Assembly: GCA_015295905.1 (NCBI GenBank)
Contig: DVEB01000192.1
Coordinates: 1 to 41,255, forward strand
Origin: Synechococcales cyanobacterium M55_K2018_004
Lineage (GTDB): Bacteria > Cyanobacteriota > Cyanobacteriia > Elainellales > Elainellaceae
Direction of reading: 5' to 3'
DNA: 41,255 nt
The stretch's first letter is position 1. Each line of letters starts with the position of its first letter. Of this stretch, positions 1,584-41,182 are shown in pieces. The notes beneath the pieces are model-generated. The model ran no database searches and was not told the origin of the DNA. It was given only the letters and a program-made list of their open reading frames with translations. The position numbers and the translations under genes are program-made.

Positions 1584-1646
1584 ACGTCAGTTCTGGGAGG
1601 GTTTTGGGGCACCGCGCCCGGCGCGGTGCCCCAAAACCCTCTTAAC
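1584..1646 (+). repeat. Family A element, single-hairpin copy A2
   Basis: This starts with the family terminus ACGTCAGTTCTGG. It carries only hairpin 1, extended to about 20 paired bases (1598-1640, AGGGTTTTGGGGCACC against its complement). It ends CTCTTAACCAG, the mirror image of the CTGGTTAAGAG seen beside the left terminus of other copies. Hairpin 2 and the GAATTCACGT end are missing. It lies 160 bases after the oxygenase stop codon and could act as a terminator, although no T-run follows. Confidence 0.75.
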
Positions 1647-1700: not shown

Positions 1701-1810
1701 ATCTGTCTGTATATCTGTCTGTCAGGTAGCAGTTTGTTGGGGTTAAAACGTTTGCACTGCGCCCGTTTGACACCACAACCAACTGACTCAAGACTCGACG
1801 GAGTCGGTAT
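1701..1810 (+). repeat. Family C element, degenerate copy C1
   Basis: The right half ends GACGGAGTCGGTAT, identical to copy C3. The left half (CTGTCTGTCAGGTAGCAG then TTTGTTG) matches the left half of the family with substitutions. The central hairpin is decayed: TGTTGGGGTTAAAACG on the left no longer pairs well with CGTTTGACACCACAACC on the right. The left end contains a duplicated ATCTGTCTGT. Confidence 0.6.
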
Positions 1811-1863
1811 TACTGACTCAACTTGGACGCAACCTATCCAACATATTTACTGATGAAACGCTT

Positions 1864-3701: not shown

Positions 3702-3969
3702 CAGTACCTCGTTTACGGTTTACAGAAAGGAATTGGTTGCGAGTAGTTGGCGATCGCGCCTTTGGGATGCGATTGCTCTTGCGATTAAGTACCCATGAGT
3801 TAAGTACCTATTCCCTACTAGGGGAGTACCCACAGGGAGTTTTATTTTATCGCTCCTGGATACCTACATTTGCCAAAGTCAGCACTCCCTGAAAACAAAC
3901 CCCCACGTTGTCCCAGCCACAGCATTGAACCCCTCAATGACCACTCGGCTCAGGAGGTGGTACTCCCGA

Positions 3970-4086
3970 ACGTGACTTGGAGATACGCTGAAGCCCTTGA
4001 TGTTCTGGGCGCGACGCGCATAGAACATCAAGGGTGTTGGGGCACTGTACACGGTGCCCCAACACCTACTTAACCGGAACTGACAT
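3970..4086 (-). repeat. Family A element, full copy A3 with 6-bp flanking repeat
   Basis: Termini are ACGTGACTTGG and CCGGAACTGACAT. The flanking hexamer TCCCGA occurs immediately outside both ends (3964-3969 and 4087-4092), which looks like a target-site duplication. Hairpin 2 (3994-4034) pairs CCCTTGATGTTCT with its complement. Hairpin 1 (4033-4066) pairs GGTGTTGGGGCAC with GTGCCCCAACACC. Compared with copy A1, TTTTGGGG has become TGTTGGGG with the matching change in the other arm. Confidence 0.85.
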
Positions 4087-4392
4087 TCCCGACATCTTCC
4101 ACACCTCTGAATCCTAATCAGTCCCTCAGATGCTAGAAAAAATAAACACATTGGCTTAAGCGATATTACTTAGATAGTATTTTTTCGGAATCAATTCAAC
4201 ATTTCTCTCAAGTTGACATTAAGTTGTGAGTGAAAACCGTTGAAATACTGATTTTGATTGAACAAAAGATATTAATTTCGTGGGCGAATATAAAGTCAAG
4301 ATGTCTAGTAGAATTCTCACTTGTCGATCACGAAAGAATAAGCGCAGTATTAAAAAATACCGATTCCTGTTTCAGTAAGGAGAACTGCACTC
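4087..4392. other. Leader region of the PEP-CTERM gene
   Basis: This AT-rich stretch has no convincing gene. A possible sigma-70-type promoter is TTGGCT (4151-4156) and TAGTAT (4175-4180) with an 18-base spacer, which would leave a leader of about 200 bases. A good ribosome binding site, AAGGAG, lies just upstream of the ATG at 4393. Confidence 0.35.
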
Positions 4393-5361: not shown

Positions 5362-5464
5362 ATAGCGCTACACGCCTAGGTGAGGACAACGTATTTTGTG
5401 GGAAACCCTGCGCAACGGGGTTTCCCACAAAACGCTTGTGACATCATGAGTGCGTAGCGCCATA
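5362..5464 (+). repeat. Family B palindromic element, copy B1
   Basis: It starts ATAGCGCTACACGCCTAGG and ends TGCGTAGCGCCATA. Its terminal inverted repeats are TATAGCGCTAC and, read on the other strand, TATGGCGCTAC. The central hairpin pairs TTTTGTGGGAAACCC with GGGTTTCCCACAAAA. It lies between the PEP-CTERM gene and its likely terminator. Confidence 0.8.
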
Positions 5465-8120: not shown

Positions 8121-8171
8121 GGTGAGGGTTGGAAGCAGTTTGCTAGAAACGCCACCCCTAATATTAGGGTG

Positions 8172-8263
8172 CTATGCGCTCATGATGTCAAAAGTGTTGT
8201 GTGGGAAACCCCGCTGCGCGTTTCCCACACAATGCGTTGTCCCAACCTAGGCGTGTAACGCTA
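8172..8263 (-). repeat. Family B element, copy B2 (reverse orientation)
   Basis: Read on the minus strand it has the family order: TAGCGTTACACGCCTAGG, a hairpin, then CATGAGCGCATAG. The hairpin pairs TTGTGTGGGAAAC with GTTTCCCACACAA. Compared with B1 (TTTTGTGGG with CCCACAAAA), a T:A pair has become G:C in both arms. Confidence 0.75.
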
Positions 8264-8405: not shown

Positions 8406-9080
8406 ATGGTAGGGGTCTACAAGTTAGAAATCGCCGAGAGTGTGGATGAACTGAAACAGTTGATGAAAGGTCAGAAAACTGCCTCAGCCAAAGAACGCAT
8501 CCAGCTATTGTACTTACTGAAAACTCGGCAAGCGCAAACCGTGAAACAGGCTGCCACCCTGCTGGGTCGTCATCGCGCTACGCTGCAGGAATGGCTGCGG
8601 GAGTACCGTCAGGGTGGGTTGGATCAACTGTTAGCTCATAAAGTCCGTTCGGGTCGTCCTCGCGCCATTCCTGCCTGGGCAGAAACTGCTCTTGAGAAAC
8701 GCTTACAAGAGCCACAAGGCTTTGCCAGCTATCAAGACATTTGCGACTGGTTGGCCAACCAATTGGGAATTCAGGCCAACTACAAAACTGTCCATAAACT
8801 GGTGCACTACCGCTTGCAAGCATCACCGAAAGTGTCTCGTCCAATGAGTGTGGAACAGTCCAGTGAGCAAGGAGTAGTAGATAAGCAGCCTAGCAGTCAA
8901 CCTAACACTACGTGAATTCGGGATAAGCTGAAGCCCTTGCTATTCGCGGTGACCCAAAACTTTCTTAACCAGTTTTAACCAGAACTGCCGTTAACAATGA
9001 TGCCGCCACAGTCTCCTGAACTGAATTCCATTCAGCTGATGGGGCAGTGTCTCAAGCAACTGACGTTACCTCGGTGCTGA
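8406..9080 (+). pseudogene. IS630-family transposase remnant, interrupted by element A5
   Basis: The first part (8406-8915) encodes the N-terminal DNA-binding half of an IS630-type transposase: helix-turn-helix segments KQAATLLGRHRATLQEWLREYR and LLAHKVRSGRPRAIPAWAE, then a winged-helix-like part through YKTVHKLVHYRLQASPKVSRP. The frame then drifts into non-family sequence and stops. After element A5, 8997-9080 encodes MPPQSPELNSIQLMGQCLKQL, the family's C-terminal motif (usually PPYSPELNPIE...W..LK), where the last catalytic acid lies. The DDE domain between them is deleted, so the gene cannot make an active enzyme. The start is the ATG at 8406. No clear terminal inverted repeats of the original insertion sequence were found. 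Confidence 0.75.
8910..8991 (-). repeat. Family A element, short copy A5 inside the transposase remnant
   Basis: Termini are ACGTGAATTCGGG and CCAGAACTGCCGT. The interior is shortened: only half of each hairpin remains (CCCTTGCTATTC, then CGCGGTGACCCAAAA). TTTTAACCAG is partly duplicated near the right end. The flanks TAACACT (8903-8909) and TAACAAT (8992-8998) agree at six of seven bases, which fits a target-site duplication. Confidence 0.7.
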
Positions 9081-9187: not shown

Positions 9188-9217
9188 TTTCAGCGTCTAA
9201 ATTCCGATCACTACGTC

Positions 9218-9323
9218 ATACCGACTCCGTTAGTTATTGAGTCGATTTGTCGTGGTGTGAAACGTGCGCTGCGCGAATGTTTCACACCACGACAAACTGC
9301 TACTTTACAGACGGATTCTGTAT
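9218..9323 (-). repeat. Family C palindromic element, full copy C2
   Basis: Terminal inverted repeats are ATACCGACTCCGT and, on the other strand, ATACAGAATCCGT (11 of 13 identical). The hairpin (9246-9296) pairs TTTGTCGTGGTGTGAAAC with GTTTCACACCACGACAAA perfectly, with a GC-rich loop region. At 106 bases this is the reference copy for the family in this window. Confidence 0.8.
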
Positions 9324-14553: not shown

Positions 14554-14744
14554 GGCCAGGCGAGGGAAGGCACTAACGAACAGGACACGAATGGGATGAT
14601 TGTGCCCGCAATTTCTCGCTCGCTCAAACCGTAAAATTGCGGAAATTCTTCCCGCCAAACTAGCCCAAACTGTAGGCAGACAGCACCTGGGCGAAGAGCC
14701 ATCCATTAGGATAGATAGAGTCGAGTGTCTGTCCCCCTTTGCGA

Positions 14745-17492
14745 ATGTCTGTGCCCCCTGTGTCTGCCGACTCGAACCCACTGGGCGACCTGCCAGAACG
14801 GCTGGTCAAACACACCGTCCGCTACGCTGATCATCGGTCGGTGAACCGGGATCAGCTCACCCCCATGATGCGGCACTACGCTGAACTGAAAGACCAGTAT
14901 CCCCACGCCTTGTTGCTCTACCGAGTGGGCGATTTCTTTGAGACGTTTTTCCAAGATGCGATCGCTGTGGCCCGCGAATTGGAACTGGTGCTGACCAGTA
15001 AGGATGCGGGCAAAGAAATCGGGCGCGTCCCTTTGGCGGGCATCCCCCACCACGCCCTCGACCGCTACTGCGCCATGCTGGTGGAAAAAGGCTATGCTGT
15101 GGCCGTCTGCGACCAGTTGGAAGATGCCTCAGAAGTGCAGGGACGACTGGTGCAGCGGGATGTTACTCGTGTCATTACCCCCGGCACTGTCTTAGAAGAG
15201 GGGATGTTGCAGGCCCGCCGCAACAACTACTTGGCAGCGGTGGTGATTGCCGGGGCGCACTGGGGGCTGGCGATCGCCGATATCTCGACTGGCGAATTCC
15301 TCACCACTCAGTCCAGCGGGTTGGAGCAGCTAACGCAAGAGCTATTGCGGCTCCACCCCTCGGAGGTGCTGGTTCCCACCAACGCGCCTGACTTGGTGGG
15401 GCTGTTGCGCCCGGGGCAGCACTCTGACCAATTGCCAGAGTGTTTGCCACCGCAGTTCTGCTACACGCTGCGGTCGCAACAGCCCTTTACCCAGGCCGAG
15501 GCACGGCAGCGGTTGCTGCAACGGTTTCGCGTGCGATCGCTGGAGGGCATGGGCTGCGAACACCTGCCTCTGGCGGTACGGGCAGCGGGTGGGTTGCTGG
15601 AATACCTGGAAGAAACCTCGGAGCGCAACGTTGGGCTGGGGCAGGCCGAAGGCAAGGCTGCTGAGGCTAAGACGGCGCTCCAGCGCATTCCCCTGCAAAC
15701 GCTCTGCACCTACACCCTAAGTGAGTACTTGGTGATCGACCACCAGACCCGCCGCAACCTAGAGATTACCCAGACGTCGCGGGATGGCACCTTCCACGGT
15801 TCGCTGCTGTGGGCGCTCGACAAAACGGTGACGGCCATGGGCGGACGGGCATTGCGCCGCTGGTTACTACAACCCTTGCTAGATATTGCTGCGATTGAAG
15901 CCCGCCAGCAGAGTGTGCAGGAACTGGTGGAACAGGGTGCCCTGCGCCAGCACCTTCAGCAAATGCTGAAGCAAATCTACGACTTGGAGCGGCTGACGGG
16001 CCGGGCCGGGTCGGGCACCGCCAATGGCCGCGACTTGGTGGCCCTAGCTGACTCCCTAGAGAAACTGCCAGATCTGGCACGGTTGCTAGCTCAGGCGCGA
16101 TCGCCCTACCTAACTGCGCTGCAAGCCCCCCAACCAGAACTGGAGCAACTGGGGCAAAAGCTACACGCTCACTTGGTAGACCAGCCGCCGCTTTACCTGA
16201 CGGAGGGTAACCTGATCCGCGATGGGGTGAATCCTCGCTTGGATGAACTACGTCGGCAACTGGCTGACGATGAACAGTGGATTGCCCGCCTCGAGGCCGA
16301 AGAACGTCAGCGGACGGGCATTCCCAACTTGAAGGTGGGCTACAACAAAGCCTTTGGCTACTACATCAGCGTTTCCCGCAGCAAGTCGAACGACAAGCCT
16401 GTGCCAGAGGGCTACACGCGCAAACAGACCCTCACCAATGAGGAACGCTACATTACCAGCGACCTGAAGGACAAGGAAAACGCGATCCACATGGCGCGTG
16501 AGGCGATTCACAAACTGGAGTATGAGATTTTTCTGGCGCTGCGGGCAGAGGTGGCCCAGTATGCTGAACCCATCCGGGCCGTGGCGGGGGCGATTGCCGC
16601 TGTCGATGTGCTCTGCTCCTTTGCAGAAACGGCGGTCTACCAGAACTATTGCTGTCCCCAGTTGGTGCCTGGCCGGGAAATCACGATTGAAGCAGGCCGC
16701 CACCCGGTGGTGGAGCAGTCCCTCCCGGCCGGGTTCTTTGTGCCCAACTCGACCCGCCTTGGTTTTCCAACAGGGCTGACTGCCTCACCTGCTCCTGATC
16801 TGATCATCCTGACTGGCCCCAACGCTAGCGGCAAGAGTTGTTATCTCCGGCAGGTGGGGCTAATCCAACTGATGGCTCAGGTGGGCAGCTTTGTGCCTGC
16901 CAAGTCAGCGACGCTGGGGGTGTGCGATCGCATCTTTACCCGAGTCGGCGCGGTAGATGACCTGGCGACGGGGCAGTCTACTTTCATGGTGGAGATGAAC
17001 GAAACGGCCAATATCCTCAACCACGCTACGCCGCGATCGCTGGTGTTGCTAGACGAAATTGGCCGCGGCACAGCTACCTTCGACGGGCTAGCGATCGCCT
17101 GGTCAGTTGCGGAGCATCTGGCCTCTGAAATAGGCGCTCGCACGATCTTTGCTACCCACTACCATGAACTCAACGAATTGGCTTCCATTTTGCCTAACAT
17201 CGCCAACTACCAGGTGGTCGTTAAAGAACTGCCCGATCAGATAATCTTTTTGCATCAGGTGCGACCGGGTGGGGCAGATAAGTCCTACGGCATTGAAGCA
17301 GGTCGCCTAGCGGGGTTGCCACCCGCGGTGATCCAACGGGCCCGTCAAGTGATGGCACAAATTGAAAAGCACTCGCGGATTGCAGTCGGCTTACGCAAGG
17401 GAACAACGTCAGTCCAGGAAACTGCACGCAACGGCAAGACCTATGCCGCCAAGCAGCGTGGCCCAGAAGAACAACTCAATATGTTTGGCTAA
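14745..17492 (+). CDS. mutS: DNA mismatch repair protein MutS
   Basis: MutS recognises mispaired bases and starts mismatch repair. The 915-residue product has the mismatch-binding N-terminus ([28 protein letters not shown], with the Phe-x-Glu wedge preserved as FFETF), connector and lever domains, and a C-terminal ATPase. ATPase motifs are [15 protein letters not shown] (Walker A, near residue 690), [16 protein letters not shown] and ATHYHEL. The length fits MutS1 with a cyanobacterial N-terminal extension. I chose ATG 14745, two codons inside a longer frame that opens with TTG. It starts 277 bases after the hexosaminidase gene, and that spacer has no other clear feature. A Dam-type methylase gene lies about 3 kb upstream. 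Confidence 0.96.
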
Positions 17493-17580
17493 GAGTCCAC
17501 ACCAAGTAGGCCACTTTCTCCCATCTGGTGGAGCGATGATGCAGTGCAATGAGGCCCAACTCCAAATCGAGCCTAGGGCT

Positions 17581-17661
17581 ACGTCAGTTCTGGTTAAGAG
17601 GGGTTTGGGTCACCGCGCCCGGCGCGGTGACCCAAACCCCTTGCTTTTCCTGAATTCACGT
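17581..17661 (+). repeat. Family A element, short copy A6 with perfect 7-bp target duplication
   Basis: It runs from ACGTCAGTTCTGGTTAAG to TGAATTCACGT. TAGGGCT stands directly outside both ends (17574-17580 and 17662-17668), the best target-site duplication in the window. Hairpin 1 pairs GGGGTTTGGGTCACCGCGCC with its complement; relative to A1 a G:C pair has become T:A. Hairpin 2 is deleted, leaving CTTGCTTTTCC. Confidence 0.85.
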
Positions 17662-17765
17662 TAGGGCTGGATGTTTGGCCCTGAATACATGAGGCCCTCT
17701 AGCAGCCGGGGGTAGGGACCATTTACCTCCGCCGTGGAGAGGCCGAGGCCAATGTTGGCTGCGGG

Positions 17766-19097
17766 TCAACGCTGGTTAGGGAACGGTGTGGCGAGGAGAC
17801 GCGACCAAGGCAAGGCTGGGTCGGTGGCTAGGTGCTGGGCAACAGCACGGGCACCTTCTCGGTTCAGGTGACTAGGGTCAGCAAAATAGTGGCTCTGGGT
17901 GGGCCAGCGCTGGCTCAGGTCTTGGAACAAAAAGCCATGTTGGGCAGCCAGTTGTTGCATCTGCTGACGAAATTGTTGCTCAGAGCGGCGACGAAAACTA
18001 TCGGCCAAATGCTCTCGGCTCAGCGGCAGGCTGACAAAAATGAGGGGCAGCCGCTGCTGTTGGGCAAATTGAGCGATTGCCACCGTTGCTTGAGTCTGTA
18101 CACCAGTCAGTTGCCACGGGAAATAATTGCTGTCGTAGCGACCCGGCACCCTGGGAAACTGCTGAAAGTAGGTGGTTGGGTTGTAGCGTGTCACTACCAA
18201 CTGAAACCCTAAGGGGGTGAGGTCAGGCGCAATTTGAGCAGGGGTGGGTTGGCGAACTAGCGCTGGAATGACCAGTGGTGTGATGGAGGAGCGATCGCCC
18301 AATCCTGTTTGGGCCTCAGACCCACGCCCTTCAGCCGGCTCAGATCGACGGCTCTGTTCTGCCGCTGGCCGTGCTGGAGGGCGCCCAACAGAGCGAGGGG
18401 TAGCCCTTGTAGACAGAGTCGATAGATTAGCGTCTGACTGCGGGTCTGGTGACGGCGCTAGGGAACTCAGAAACAAGGGGGCCTGGAGTTGGCGTAACTG
18501 CCGAAATCCCTCCGAAGCGACGATGCCATTGTAGGTAATATCAGGCCGACCACTGTTAAAGGCGCGTGAGCCATCCGCCCAGACAATCACCCGAGGCAAC
18601 TCATTGGGGGAGAGCACCTGCTGCAAGATCAGGTTGACAACCCGCGCTGTTGCCCCATTGATACTGAAGTTATAGGCCCGCACCCCCCGGAAGCCTCGTG
18701 CAGCTAGGGCCTCCTGCAAGACCTGGGGGTCAACCCCTTGGAGGGCACGGGAACTCCCAACGATCAACACATCCGGTGGGCCTTGTTGGGTTAAGTAGTG
18801 TTGGTAGAGCCGGATCTGCTGGTCTAGGCGGCGGCTGTTAAAGCTAGGAAAGGTGTGTACCAGCGGTGTCAGGGCTGAGTCTAAAGGCGTAGATGGTTCG
18901 GGTTCAGGCCGTGAATTGAACGGTTCTGTTGCTTTACCCGACCGGGCCAGCCATTCATTGGCGAGCGCACTCCCGCCTAGCAGCACTGCTGCCAACAGTA
19001 GTCCTCCCAGCCTAGCTTTGTGCCGCAGCGAAACAATCAAGGGGGCCGATTTCATGGCAGAGTTGGCAGAGCCTCGCTGAAAGAACACATTCATCAT
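17766..19097 (-). CDS. DUF1574-like SGNH-fold protein, membrane anchored
   Basis: The 443-residue product has an N-terminal anchor (about 29-47, ARLGGLLLAAVLLGGSALA). An SGNH/GDSL-like domain follows, with the serine motif VLIVGSSRALQGVDP and the late Asp-His motif FADPSHLNREGARAV. YNFSINGATARVV and VIVWADGSRAFNSG are typical of the DUF1574 type of cyanobacterial surface proteins, thought to act on extracytoplasmic polysaccharide. About 90 residues in the middle are a Pro/Arg/Ser-rich insert (PSPDPQSDANLSTLSTRATP onwards), probably disordered. It shares the direction of hetR, which lies 188 bases upstream. After the TGA the frame stays open for 34 more codons (see findings). Confidence 0.75.
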   Translation of the reverse strand: MMNVFFQRGSANSAMKSAPLIVSLRHKARLGGLLLAAVLLGGSALANEWLARSGKATEPFNSRPEPEPSTPLDSALTPLVHTFPSFNSRRLDQQIRLYQHYLTQQGPPDVLIVGSSRALQGVDPQVLQEALAARGFRGVRAYNFSINGATARVVNLILQQVLSPNELPRVIVWADGSRAFNSGRPDITYNGIVASEGFRQLRQLQAPLFLSSLAPSPDPQSDANLSTLSTRATPRSVGRPPARPAAEQSRRSEPAEGRGSEAQTGLGDRSSITPLVIPALVRQPTPAQIAPDLTPLGFQLVVTRYNPTTYFQQFPRVPGRYDSNYFPWQLTGVQTQATVAIAQFAQQQRLPLIFVSLPLSREHLADSFRRRSEQQFRQQMQQLAAQHGFLFQDLSQRWPTQSHYFADPSHLNREGARAVAQHLATDPALPWSRLLATPFPNQR

Positions 19098-28573: not shown

Positions 28574-30643
28574 ATGAGTTTGTGCATCAACCCCAACTGC
28601 CTCCAACCAGACCATCCTGGCAACGATGGTAGCCGCTTTTGCCAGAGCTGCGGCTCTGACTTAGTGTTGCAGGAACGCTATCGGGTGATGCGGCTGCTCA
28701 GTGACAAGAGCGGCTTTGGGCGGGTCTATGAGGCGTACGAGCGCAGCATTCCTAAAATTTTGAAGGTGCTGAAGGAGACCCATAGCAAGACCTCGAAGGC
28801 TGTTTTTTTGTTTAAGCGGGAAGCGTTGGTGTTAAGCCAGCTTAAGCATCCAGGCATCCCAGCGGTGGAGGCAGACGGCTACTTTGAGTTCACCCCCCGG
28901 GGGGCGGAGGAACCACTGCACTGCATCATCATGGAGAAAATAGATGGCCCCAATCTGCGGGAGTGGATGCGACAGCAGGGCAACAACCCCATCAGTGAGA
29001 AGCAGGCAATCAACTGGATGCGGCAGGTGACCGATGTGCTGCACCGGGTTCACCAGAAAAACTTTTTCCACCGCGACATCAAGCCGGAAAACATTATGCT
29101 CCGCTCGAATGGGCAACTGGTGCTGGTGGACTTTGGCGCCGTGCGCGAGATGACCGATACCTATCTGGCCCAGTTGGGTGTGACAGGGGGCGTGACGCGC
29201 ATCAGTTCCGCCGGCTACACCCCACCGGAGCAGGAGAAGGGGCAGGCTGTCCCCCAGTCTGACTTTTATGCCCTGGGCTGGACGTTTGTGTTTCTGCTGA
29301 CCGGGAAGTTGCCGACCGACCCAGAGATATATGACTCTCTGCACAATTCCTACCACTGGCGCAGGTATGCTCCCCAGATTTCCTCTGCCTTTGCTGATTT
29401 CATTGACCGTCTGATTGCCGAGCGAGCTGCCGATCGCCCCCGCACCACCCAGGAAATGCTGGATACTCTAGAAAAACTGGCGATCGCCCCTACTCCTGCC
29501 CCAGCCCTCGGCAGCGCGACTCGCTCCCAACCCGATACCCACTCTCCCCCGCGAGAAACCGTTGTACAGGCTGACACTGCCGTCCAAGCAAGACGAACCA
29601 CGGCTGGTGCAGGCCGTCAATCGCATCGTTGGTTACTGGGGAGCCTGGCCCTCTTAATCCTGGGATTGGCCGGTTACGGAGCCGTGCGCATCTATGGCTG
29701 CTGGTCACAGGGGGACTGCGTGATTTTCACAGGCGATCGCCCTCAGACACTCCTGCCCGCAAAAATCCTGGCAGGGCACACTGGCTTGGTGAATCGTGTG
29801 GCTTTTACCAGCAACGGTCAAACCGTGATAAGCGCTGGGCTAGACAGCACGATTCGCCTGTGGGACGTGGCAACGGGAAACCCGATCCGCACCCTATCGG
29901 GCCACACCGGATTCATCAATGCCTTGACCGTCAGCGATGATGGCAAACTCCTCGCTAGTGGCGGCAGCGACAAGGAGATCAAAATTTGGGACATGGCGAC
30001 GGGGCAACTGCTGCAAACGTTGAAGGGGCATACTCAGCCCATCAATGCCCTGCTGTTTACCCCCGATGGCGTCTTGGTGAGTGGCAGTGCCGATCGCACC
30101 ATTCGCCTCTGGAACCCCACCAGTGGCCAGATGCTGCGCCTACTGGAGGGGCACAAAGGCTTTATCAATACCCTGGCCATCAGCCCCGATGGGCAAACCC
30201 TGGCCAGTGGGGGCACTGATCCTGTGATCATGACCTGGAATTTGCAGACGGGGGAACACCTCCGCAGCTTTGATGGCTTCACGGGGTTTATCAATGCGAT
30301 CGCCTTCACCCACGATGGTATGACCCTGATCGGGGGCGGCACCGATCGCTCCATCCATCTTTGGGATCTCTCGAATGGGACGTTGAAGCAGACCCTCACT
30401 GACCACCTCGGTTTCATCAACAACCTGGCGGTGCGGGGAGATGGCCAGATATTTCTGAGTAGCGATGCGGAAGGGAAACTGGTTGCCTGGGATCTTCAGC
30501 ATGGTAGGGCGATCGCCAGCTTTACAGGCGAGGGTGCCCTCCTAGACCATTTCGCCATCAGTCCAGACTGGCGCACGTTCGCGACCGGACGAGGATTTGA
30601 CGCCGTGCGTTTGTGGGCACTGCCACCCATCCAGCCAAAGTAA
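28574..30643 (+). CDS. Hanks-type Ser/Thr kinase with zinc ribbon, membrane helix and WD40 propeller
   Basis: The 689-residue product combines four parts. Residues 4-26 hold a CINPNC...CQSCG zinc ribbon typical of cyanobacterial kinases. Residues 36-305 are the kinase, with K64 (KILKVLK), E83, HRDIKPEN (166-173), DFG (186-188) and AGYTPPEQ. A Pro/Thr-rich link and a membrane helix (353-372) follow. The C-terminus (398-687) has about seven WD40 repeats with GHT...F...IRLWD signatures, forming a beta-propeller on the other side of the membrane. The kinase domain looks active, with the Lys/Asp/DFG set intact. It may sense an extracytoplasmic partner, but no substrate is known. The gene starts 214 bases from the divergent hydrolase. 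Its stop codon TAA shares its last base with element A7. Confidence 0.93.
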   Translation: MSLCINPNCLQPDHPGNDGSRFCQSCGSDLVLQERYRVMRLLSDKSGFGRVYEAYERSIPKILKVLKETHSKTSKAVFLFKREALVLSQLKHPGIPAVEADGYFEFTPRGAEEPLHCIIMEKIDGPNLREWMRQQGNNPISEKQAINWMRQVTDVLHRVHQKNFFHRDIKPENIMLRSNGQLVLVDFGAVREMTDTYLAQLGVTGGVTRISSAGYTPPEQEKGQAVPQSDFYALGWTFVFLLTGKLPTDPEIYDSLHNSYHWRRYAPQISSAFADFIDRLIAERAADRPRTTQEMLDTLEKLAIAPTPAPALGSATRSQPDTHSPPRETVVQADTAVQARRTTAGAGRQSHRWLLGSLALLILGLAGYGAVRIYGCWSQGDCVIFTGDRPQTLLPAKILAGHTGLVNRVAFTSNGQTVISAGLDSTIRLWDVATGNPIRTLSGHTGFINALTVSDDGKLLASGGSDKEIKIWDMATGQLLQTLKGHTQPINALLFTPDGVLVSGSADRTIRLWNPTSGQMLRLLEGHKGFINTLAISPDGQTLASGGTDPVIMTWNLQTGEHLRSFDGFTGFINAIAFTHDGMTLIGGGTDRSIHLWDLSNGTLKQTLTDHLGFINNLAVRGDGQIFLSSDAEGKLVAWDLQHGRAIASFTGEGALLDHFAISPDWRTFATGRGFDAVRLWALPPIQPK

Positions 30644-30836
30644 CGTCAGTTTTGGTTAAGCGGGTTTTGGGGCACCGCGCCCGGCGCGGTGCCCCAAAAC
30701 CTTCGATGTTCTGGGCGCGTCGCGCCCAGAACATCGAAGGTTTCAGCGTATCCGGAATTCATACAGAATCCGTCTGTAAAGTAGCAGTGTGTCGTGGTGT
30801 AAACCGATTCAATAACCGACGGAGTCGGTATCACGT
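30643..30836 (+). repeat. Family A element, copy A7, interrupted by family C copy C3
   Basis: It starts ACGTCAGTTTTGGTTAAG. Hairpin 1 spans 30663-30701, and hairpin 2 (30700-30740) pairs CCTTCGATGTTCTGGGCGCG with a perfect complement. The right terminus is split: GAATTC ends at 30760 and CACGT follows at 30832-30836, with C3 between. Its first base is the last base of the kinase stop codon. Confidence 0.8.
30761..30831 (+). repeat. Family C element, hairpin-deleted copy C3 nested in A7
   Basis: Both termini are intact: ATACAGAATCCGTCTGTAAAG at the left (first 20 bases used for comparison) and GACGGAGTCGGTAT at the right. The hairpin arms are lost except for TGTCGTGGTGTAAACCG, giving 71 bases instead of 106. 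It lies within the terminal sequence of an A copy. Confidence 0.75.
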
Positions 30837-30952
30837 ATCTCTAGGTTCAGCCATCCCAACAATTTTCTGCAGGTCACGGTTCATTGACACTTTCGGCCGG
30901 TGTAAGTGAAGATCAGAGCAGTATTCGTTAAAGAATGTGAAGGCTGTCTCTC

Positions 30953-31591: not shown

Positions 31592-31714
31592 ACGTGAACT
31601 CCGGATACGCTGAAGCCTTTGACGTTCCAGGCGCGACACGCTTGGAACGTTAAAGGTTTCGGGGCACCGCGCATGGCGCGGTGCCCCGAAATCCTCATTA
31701 ACCAGAACTGACGT
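31592..31714 (-). repeat. Family A element, full copy A8
   Basis: Termini are ACGTGAACTCCGG and CCAGAACTGACGT. Hairpin 2 (31616-31656) pairs CCTTTGACGTTCCAGGCGCG with a near complement. Hairpin 1 pairs TTTCGGGGCACCGCGC with its complement; a T:A pair of A1 has become C:G. It lies 3 bases after the dedA-like stop codon. Confidence 0.85.
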
Positions 31715-36534: not shown

Positions 36535-36638
36535 TATAGCGCTACAGGCATGGGTTAGGACAAAGCGTTTTGTGGGAAGCCTAGCTGCGCGGGGGGCCCT
36601 ACAAAATGTGTTTTACATTACAAGCGCGTAGCGCCATA
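36535..36638 (+). repeat. Family B element, copy B3
   Basis: Left end TATAGCGCTACAGGCATGGG, right end GCGCGTAGCGCCATA. The hairpin is partly decayed: TTTTGTGGGAAGCC faces GGGGGCCCTACAAAA with mismatches. It lies 57 bases after the aarF-type gene and 5 bases before A9. Confidence 0.75.
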
Positions 36639-36643
36639 CTCTA

Positions 36644-36758
36644 ACGTCAGTACGGATTCAGCAGATTTTGGGACACTGCACAGTGTCTCCAAACCCTTGA
36701 TGTTGCCTGCGCGGCGCGCAGGCAACATCAAGGGTTTCAGCTGATCTGGAATTCACCT
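36644..36758 (+). repeat. Family A element, full copy A9
   Basis: It starts ACGTCAGTACGG and ends GGAATTCACCT, with one change in the terminal ACGT. Hairpin 2 pairs CCCTTGATGTTGCCTGCGC with its perfect complement; relative to A1 at least four pairs differ with both partners changed. Hairpin 1 is shorter (TTTTGGGACACTG against CAGTGTCTCCAAA). Confidence 0.8.
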
Positions 36759-39308: not shown

Positions 39309-39430
39309 ACGTGAATTCGGGATAAGCTGAAACTCTTGCTGTTCCGTGCGCGTCGCGCACGGAACAGCAAGAGTTTTGAGTCACCGTGCCGAGCGCGGTG
39401 ACCCAAAACCCTCTTAACCAGAACTGACGT
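39309..39430 (-). repeat. Family A element, full copy A10
   Basis: Termini are ACGTGAATTCGGG and CCAGAACTGACGT. Hairpin 2 pairs ACTCTTGCTGTTCCGTGCG with its complement across a short loop. Hairpin 1 is TTTTGAGTCACC against GGTGACCCAAAA, with one mismatch. TATTTA (39303-39308) and TATTGA (39431-39436) outside the ends match at five of six bases. Confidence 0.85.
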
Positions 39431-39507: not shown

Positions 39508-39549
39508 CTTTCGAGAGCGCTACACGCACTTTCGAGAGCGCTACACGCA
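39508..39549. repeat. 21-bp tandem duplication at the left end of B4
   Basis: The 21-base unit beginning CTTTCGAGAGCGCTACACGC occurs twice head to tail (39508-39528 and 39529-39549). It includes the left terminus of family B, so the duplication has copied the element's end. Confidence 0.8.
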
Positions 39550-39637
39550 TAGGTTAGGACAAAGCGTTTTGTGGGCAACCCCGCTGCATGGGATTGCCCG
39601 CAAAAAACGGTTTACATCATGAGCGTGTAGCGCCATA
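39536..39637 (+). repeat. Family B element, copy B4
   Basis: Left end AGCGCTACACGCATAGG, right end GAGCGTGTAGCGCCATA. The hairpin is TTTTGTGGGCAACCC against GGGATTGCCCGCAAAA with two imperfect pairs. Relative to B1 an A:T pair has become C:G in both arms. Confidence 0.8.
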
Positions 39638-40848: not shown

Positions 40849-40896
40849 TCAAATCAGTGACCCCAAAAAATGAAGCCTTCTCCCTATGGCGACTCT

Positions 40897-40985
40897 ATCG
40901 GTGATTGAGTTGATTTGTTGTGATGTAAAACGTGTGTACAGCGCACGTTTTACATCACAACAAACTTCTACTTTTAATTAATTAA
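40897..40985 (-). repeat. Family C element, copy C4 with altered stem
   Basis: The hairpin (40914-40964) pairs TTTGTTGTGATGTAAAACG with CGTTTTACATCACAACAAA perfectly. Compared with C2, three stem pairs have changed from C:G or G:C to T:A or A:T, each in both arms. The outer ends are weakly conserved (ATCGGTGATTGAGT at left, CTTCTACTTTTAA at right). Confidence 0.75.
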
Positions 40986-41079: not shown

Positions 41080-41182
41080 TATGGCGCTACGTGCTCATGA
41101 TGTAAACCGGTTTTTGTGGGCAATCCCATGCAGCGGGGTTACCCACAAAAAACGTTGTCTTAGCCTATGCGGGTAGCGCTAC
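41080..41182 (-). repeat. Family B element, copy B5
   Basis: Left end TATGGCGCTACGTGCTCATG, right end ATGCGGGTAGCGCTAC. The hairpin pairs TTTTTGTGGGCAA with TTACCCACAAAAA, with one mismatch. CTGGAACTAT occurs just before and again just after the element (41073-41082 and 41190-41199). Confidence 0.75.

Follow-up and report, generated by a model that had tools for sequence, protein, structure and literature searches.

A double-hairpin repeat family of a cyanobacterial genome has the features of a MITE and the ends of IS982 insertion sequences

What is the short palindromic sequence that lies between two convergent genes of this genome, and is it mobile? The window, the whole stretch of 41,255 bp analysed here, is contig C179 in its entirety, from a genome of 5.01 Mb assembled in 362 contigs and referred to below as G000. 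The host is cyanobacterial, as a HetR gene lies within the window and the closest matches of its MutS are cyanobacterial and 68–70% identical. An 81-bp sequence lies between mutS (14739–17492, plus strand) and an SGNH/DUF1574 gene (17766–19097, minus strand). It is laid out as TAGGGCT–ACGTCAGTTC...GAATTCACGT–TAGGGCT, with the flanking repeats directly abutting the element, and it belongs to a dispersed family, family A, whose copies in the window are listed in Table 1. An Rfam search of the window gave no match.

Table 1. Positions of family A copies and of the parts of the 81-bp copy within the window.
Feature	Position	Strand	Remarks
Short-form MITE copy of 81 bp that has lost one hairpin	17581..17661	-	between the convergent mutS and SGNH/DUF1574 genes
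Left target-site duplication, TAGGGCT	17574..17580	+	
Right target-site duplication, TAGGGCT	17662..17668	+	
Terminal inverted repeat, ACGTCAGTTCTGGTTAAG end	17581..17598	+	IS982 end carries ACGTCAGTTCGGGTTAAG
Perfect hairpin	17599..17641	.	21-nt arms 17599–17619 / 17621–17641, 1-nt loop
Terminal inverted repeat, ACGTGAATTC end	17652..17661	-	
117-bp copy	3970..4086	+	perfect TCCCGA duplications at 3964–3969 and 4087–4092
82-bp copy	8910..8991	+	TAACACT/TAACAAT, 6/7
Full-length 122-bp copy, both hairpins	39309..39430	+	TATTTA/TATTGA, 5/6
123-bp copy	31592..31714	+	without recognisable duplication; begins 3 bp past a gene's stop codon
115-bp copy	36644..36758	-	without recognisable duplication
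Full-length copy	30643..30764	-	its first base is the last base of the TAA stop in gene 28574–30643
Truncated copy	1584..1640	+	
Copy cut by contig end	41203..41255	+	

The first-pass annotation had proposed that family A copies transpose, on the grounds that they are flanked by 6–7 bp direct repeats. The examples it gave are all present: perfect repeats beside the 81-bp copy (its A6) and the 117-bp copy (A3), and imperfect ones beside the 82-bp copy (A5) and one full-length copy (A10). We examined the flanks of 179 two-ended copies from G000, with element boundaries set at ACGT...ACGT and a null of 2000 shuffles that re-paired real left and right flanks and thereby retained target preference. 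Perfect flanking repeats of 6–9 bp were found at 38 of the 179 copies, against a shuffled mean of 0.69 and a maximum of 4. This strong enrichment is the opposite of the outcome that would have spoken against transposition, and it depended on exact placement of the boundary: shifting it inward by 1 bp left 2 perfect repeats among the 179 copies, and shifts of 2–5 bp left none. All length classes were affected, with perfect duplications at 4 of 18 units in the 46-bp class (0.25 expected from shuffles), 10 of 40 in the 70–90 bp class (0.46) and 23 of 104 in the 112–130 bp class (0.49). About 79% of G000 copies lack a perfect duplication, as expected if the copies are old. The duplicated target has the form TA-N2..4-TA and the duplications form a consistent class, as in a MITE; the claim of flanking repeats therefore holds, but tabulation over the copies of the 1.22-Mb sample extends their length from the proposed 6–7 bp to 6–8 bp.

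Empty sites were sought where family A copies lie inside other repeat families of G000, by joining the flanks minus one duplication and aligning the product to uninterrupted members. No net gap was seen across the junction in 15 of 17 matches for the copy at L152:10041-10160, 24 of 27 for a 46-bp unit (L122:6792-6837), 49 of 59 at L111:4835-4915 and 35 of 40 at L145:12916-13037; the four insertions are independent, whereas matches sharing a host repeat are not. At L125:10519-10633, where the duplication is imperfect and was left untrimmed, 5 or 6 bases have to be taken out at the junction in 49 of 59 matches. In four independent paralogous cases, then, the empty site holds exactly one copy of the target and not two, as predicted for a MITE by the first-pass annotation. 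In the G003/G046 pair, where an orthologous empty site was sought, synteny is present and the intergenic stretch is too diverged to align.

One of the host repeats is a second family of about 102 bp, found in the window at 5363–5464, 8165–8263, 36537–36638, 39537–39637 and 41080–41181; its copies are about 70–84% identical, are numerous across the genome, and have received family A insertions. A third repeat family, a TTTGTCGTGGTGTGAAACGTGCGC-type palindrome (window 1713–1813, 9215–9316, 40890–40974 and 30761–30837), directly abuts or interrupts family A copies, as on the far side of the copy at 30643–30764.

The census covered 1.22 Mb of G000 and its 179 two-ended copies extrapolate to about 730 genome-wide, a figure that is slightly high since the first contigs were picked for strong hits. 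A first look with an 81–95 bp query gave 592–687 candidates in the genome, of which only 30–40 were scored. The family thus comprises several hundred copies. These are mostly 46–144 bp in length, non-coding and dispersed, and are bounded by imperfect terminal inverted repeats (ACSTSARTTCNGGWTAAG at both ends), in agreement with the first-pass description of the ends and with the size, copy number and termini of a MITE. In the full unit of 122 bp, two perfect GC-rich hairpins lie between the terminal repeats. Three length classes recur, of about 122 bp with two hairpins, 77–84 bp, in most cases with one hairpin lost, and 46 bp with both lost, and the shorter two, including the 81-bp window copy, are internal deletions of the 122-bp element. 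Three candidate variants with internal ends, on G000 contigs C218, C246 and C330, proved to be diverged MITE copies. A plasmid collection searched with the 122-bp consensus gave no match. Several contigs of the G000 assembly end within family A copies; that such copies break assemblies is a practical consequence of the family.

We compared the hairpins across 62 aligned 122-bp copies from G000. Inside both hairpins, differences between copies are often matched on the two arms: pair 31–59 is C-G in 42 copies and A-T in 17, pair 33–57 is G-C in 44 and T-A in 13, and pair 73–93 is G-C in 33 and T-A in 19. Cells changed on both sides number 113 in total, a count in which shared ancestry means that cells are not independent events. 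Breaks in hairpin pairs are mostly transitions, as expected of decay, and the outer terminal repeats have almost no matched changes. The arms could match because one is corrected against the other during replication, or because selection favours a perfect hairpin. The hairpins do not seem to be needed for movement, as 46-bp units sit in duplications; three of these units share two substitutions that are found together in only 1 of 104 long copies.

Copies are also placed unevenly with respect to genes. With a simple gene caller, 3 of the 179 copies fell inside genes, and among the 150 that could be classified, 55 lay within 30 bp of a gene 3′ end, where intergenic length predicts about 8, and 7 lay equally close to a 5′ end, against about 9 predicted. 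The most frequent exact offset, seen in 14 copies, is a one-base overlap with the gene end, in which a TAA stop codon is made from the TA of the target and the first A of the element (window example, 30641–30643). The 3′-end pattern may be due partly to the gene caller halting at that TAA and partly to selection against other sites.

Among 36 genomes of the order, G015 and G003, from genera other than that of the window, also contain families with strong matches. Perfect duplications flank 26 of 38 copies in G015 (1.2 in shuffles) and 10 of 13 in G003 (1.0 in shuffles). In G015, dozens of copies at dozens of sites are 97–100% identical over 122 bp, which indicates that the family spread there in a recent burst. 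In G003, 11 of 13 copies are exactly 122 bp long, and the elements keep the layout and length of those in G000 while their arms are largely different yet still complementary. Based on these patterns we tentatively suggest, as one possibility and not the favoured expectation, that the hairpins are not passive cargo: either selection or recurrent copying of one arm onto the other may preserve the complementarity of the arms as the element diverges between genera with its length constant at 122 bp, and the element, landing in TA-rich stop-codon surroundings where its ends complete a TAA, may be a host-tolerated mobile gene-end module (a terminator or mRNA 3′ end) at hundreds of sites.

The family A model weakly matched further elements, comparable in size and likewise with two GC-rich hairpins, in G012, G032, G033 and G034 (L338, L348, L340, L336 and L339) and in G007 (L335 and L347). 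Their ends are of other types, AGTAGATCGCAAAT... in most, and elements that are not related may also have a two-hairpin layout. An element of about 117 bp in G015 (contig C72, L260:127-243) has ends ACCTGAGTTCGACAACGAG... and long near-perfect arms, with only about its first ten bases in common with family A; it is possibly another IS982-type MITE.

A search for end-like sequences led to a contig end in G015 at which an IS982-transposase-like reading frame begins after a MITE terminus. The NCBIfam model NF033520 (transpos_IS982) has several hits in G015, the best scoring 226 bits against a cut-off of 130 and corresponding to a 250-aa open frame that also matches Pfam DDE_Tnp_1_3; a partner with an IS982 family transposase is thus present in that genome. 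An open frame for the IS982 transposase lies on contig C7 of G015. The G015 insertion sequences are 931–988 bp long, and two of them (L253 and L254) carry at their ends both types of MITE terminus, ACGTGAGTTCGGGATAAG and ACGTCAGTTCGGGTTAAG, agreeing with the G015 MITE end consensus at 18/18 and 17/18 positions. IS982 remnants in G016 end in ACGTCAGTTCGGGTTAAG as well, over the same 18 bp, and the last 21 bp of the insertion sequence are identical to at least 7 element ends in G000. MITE ends and the IS982 ends of G015 and G016 therefore agree at 17–18 of 18 bp, as in an IS982-derived element. The few near-complete IS982 copies in G015 have no clear target duplications of their own. IS982 elements generally leave variable target duplications of 3–9 bp, a range within which the 6–8 bp of family A would fall.

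A DNA-level search of G000 with the whole insertion sequence found nothing beyond the terminal repeats, and an IS982 gene or transposase was not found in G000, where the 362-contig assembly may miss repeats, or in G003. An IS982-derived MITE usually shares its genome with such a partner, although this is not strictly part of the definition. The transposase with matching ends for which the first-pass annotation had proposed a search was thus found in sister genera, where IS982 elements have the same 18-bp ends, and not in G000 itself. The sole weak IS982 hit in G000, a 396-aa frame on a 3-kb contig (C360), scored 26.5 bits against the cut-off of 130 and was set aside on its score and appearance; by eye, it looks like an IS5/IS1182-type transposase. 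This small contig (L162/L251, 3003 bp) contains transposase-like and acyltransferase-like frames and may be foreign to the assembly.

How these elements move was weighed against three other accounts. Failure to detect an IS982 gene in G000 or G003, despite the many copies, would fit a true MITE that was moved in G000 by a non-IS982 transposase recognising the same ends. We consider this unlikely, since the ends match sister-genus IS982 elements over 18–21 bp. Moreover, 1.14 Mb of G000 contained no convincing case of ends 0.3–3.5 kb apart that bracket a transposase, nor any such pair with a near-perfect duplication apart from one weak 1-kb pair, which ends on a MITE copy. A much less probable account, to which we give very little weight, is that family A consists of extragenic palindromes that do not transpose, either terminators or REP-like sequences, and owes its spread to recombination or template switching, with flanking repeats arising by coincidence. 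Two perfect GC-rich hairpins and strong clustering behind gene ends would suit such palindromes, but the duplications lie far above shuffled flanks with exact dependence on the boundary, and single-copy empty sites refute it.

Least probable of all, and in our judgement barely worth entertaining, is a REPIN-type element moved as single-stranded hairpins by a RAYT (TnpA-REP) transposase. To our knowledge, REP systems leave no target duplication, and REPINs have neither the terminal inverted repeats of DDE transposons nor target duplications. The 6–8 bp duplications of family A refute this origin, its copies have terminal inverted repeats as well, and 46-bp units that lack hairpins likewise sit within duplications. 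The likeness is one of outline, in that REPINs pair two hairpins in a short mobile unit (PMC3116915), but REP systems have GTAG/CGTC tags (PMC3733652).

We therefore return to the conclusion that family A consists of transposing MITEs, as first proposed, with duplications, exact boundaries and single-copy empty sites, the window copy being a shortened derivative of the 122-bp element. With high confidence, it is a non-autonomous MITE with the ends of a cyanobacterial IS982 subgroup, presumably mobilised by IS982 transposase. The same 18 bp terminate the IS982 elements of G015 and G016, which makes their type of transposase the likely mobiliser; this role is well supported by the ends, and its action in G000 is inferred. 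In the mechanism we propose, the terminal repeats of about 18 bp (ACSTSARTTCNGGWTAAG) would be bound by a DDE transposase of the IS982 family acting in trans, which would cut out or copy the element and insert it at a staggered TA-N2..4-TA target; gap repair would leave the 6–8 bp duplications. The G000 family would have lost its transposase after spreading, and it appears to be orphaned, unless the fragmented assembly lacks the gene. A cyanobacterial IS982-type MITE is now described for which the ends are placed to the base, a target rule and paralogous empty sites are established and the parent family is identified. It forms a large non-autonomous family, several hundred copies strong, and no parent transposase is detectable in its genome. 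As the arms of its hairpin pair evolve together, how such hairpins remain perfect can also be tested directly.

The closest comparison is MITECca01 of the Cardinium endosymbiont of Oedothorax gibbosus, an IS982/ISCca4-derived MITE with 169 copies (PMC9769881). Like family A, it is non-coding, has a high copy number and IS982 ends, and is mostly intergenic or inside other mobile elements. It differs in being about 240 bp long, with traces of its parent insertion sequence and an intact parent in the same genome (PMC9769881), whereas the family A unit is 122 bp, matches the insertion sequence in its terminal repeats only, is present in several hundred copies and has no parent found in G000. The double-hairpin layout is a feature of family A of which the excerpt of PMC9769881 makes no mention for MITECca01. 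High copy number is also a feature of Nezha and of other MITEs known from cyanobacteria (Zhou et al. 2008 and Kaneko et al., as cited in PMC10969869). The same review describes Correia, ERIC and QMITE2 as short, hairpin-forming intergenic elements with up to several hundred copies and size variants, which resemble family A by description and occupy other hosts. Family A has the MITE features tested and IS982 ends and is in this respect a conventional kind of mobile DNA; it is set apart by its size, its two-hairpin layout and the lack of a detectable parent, and its unusual trait is the pair of co-varying hairpins.
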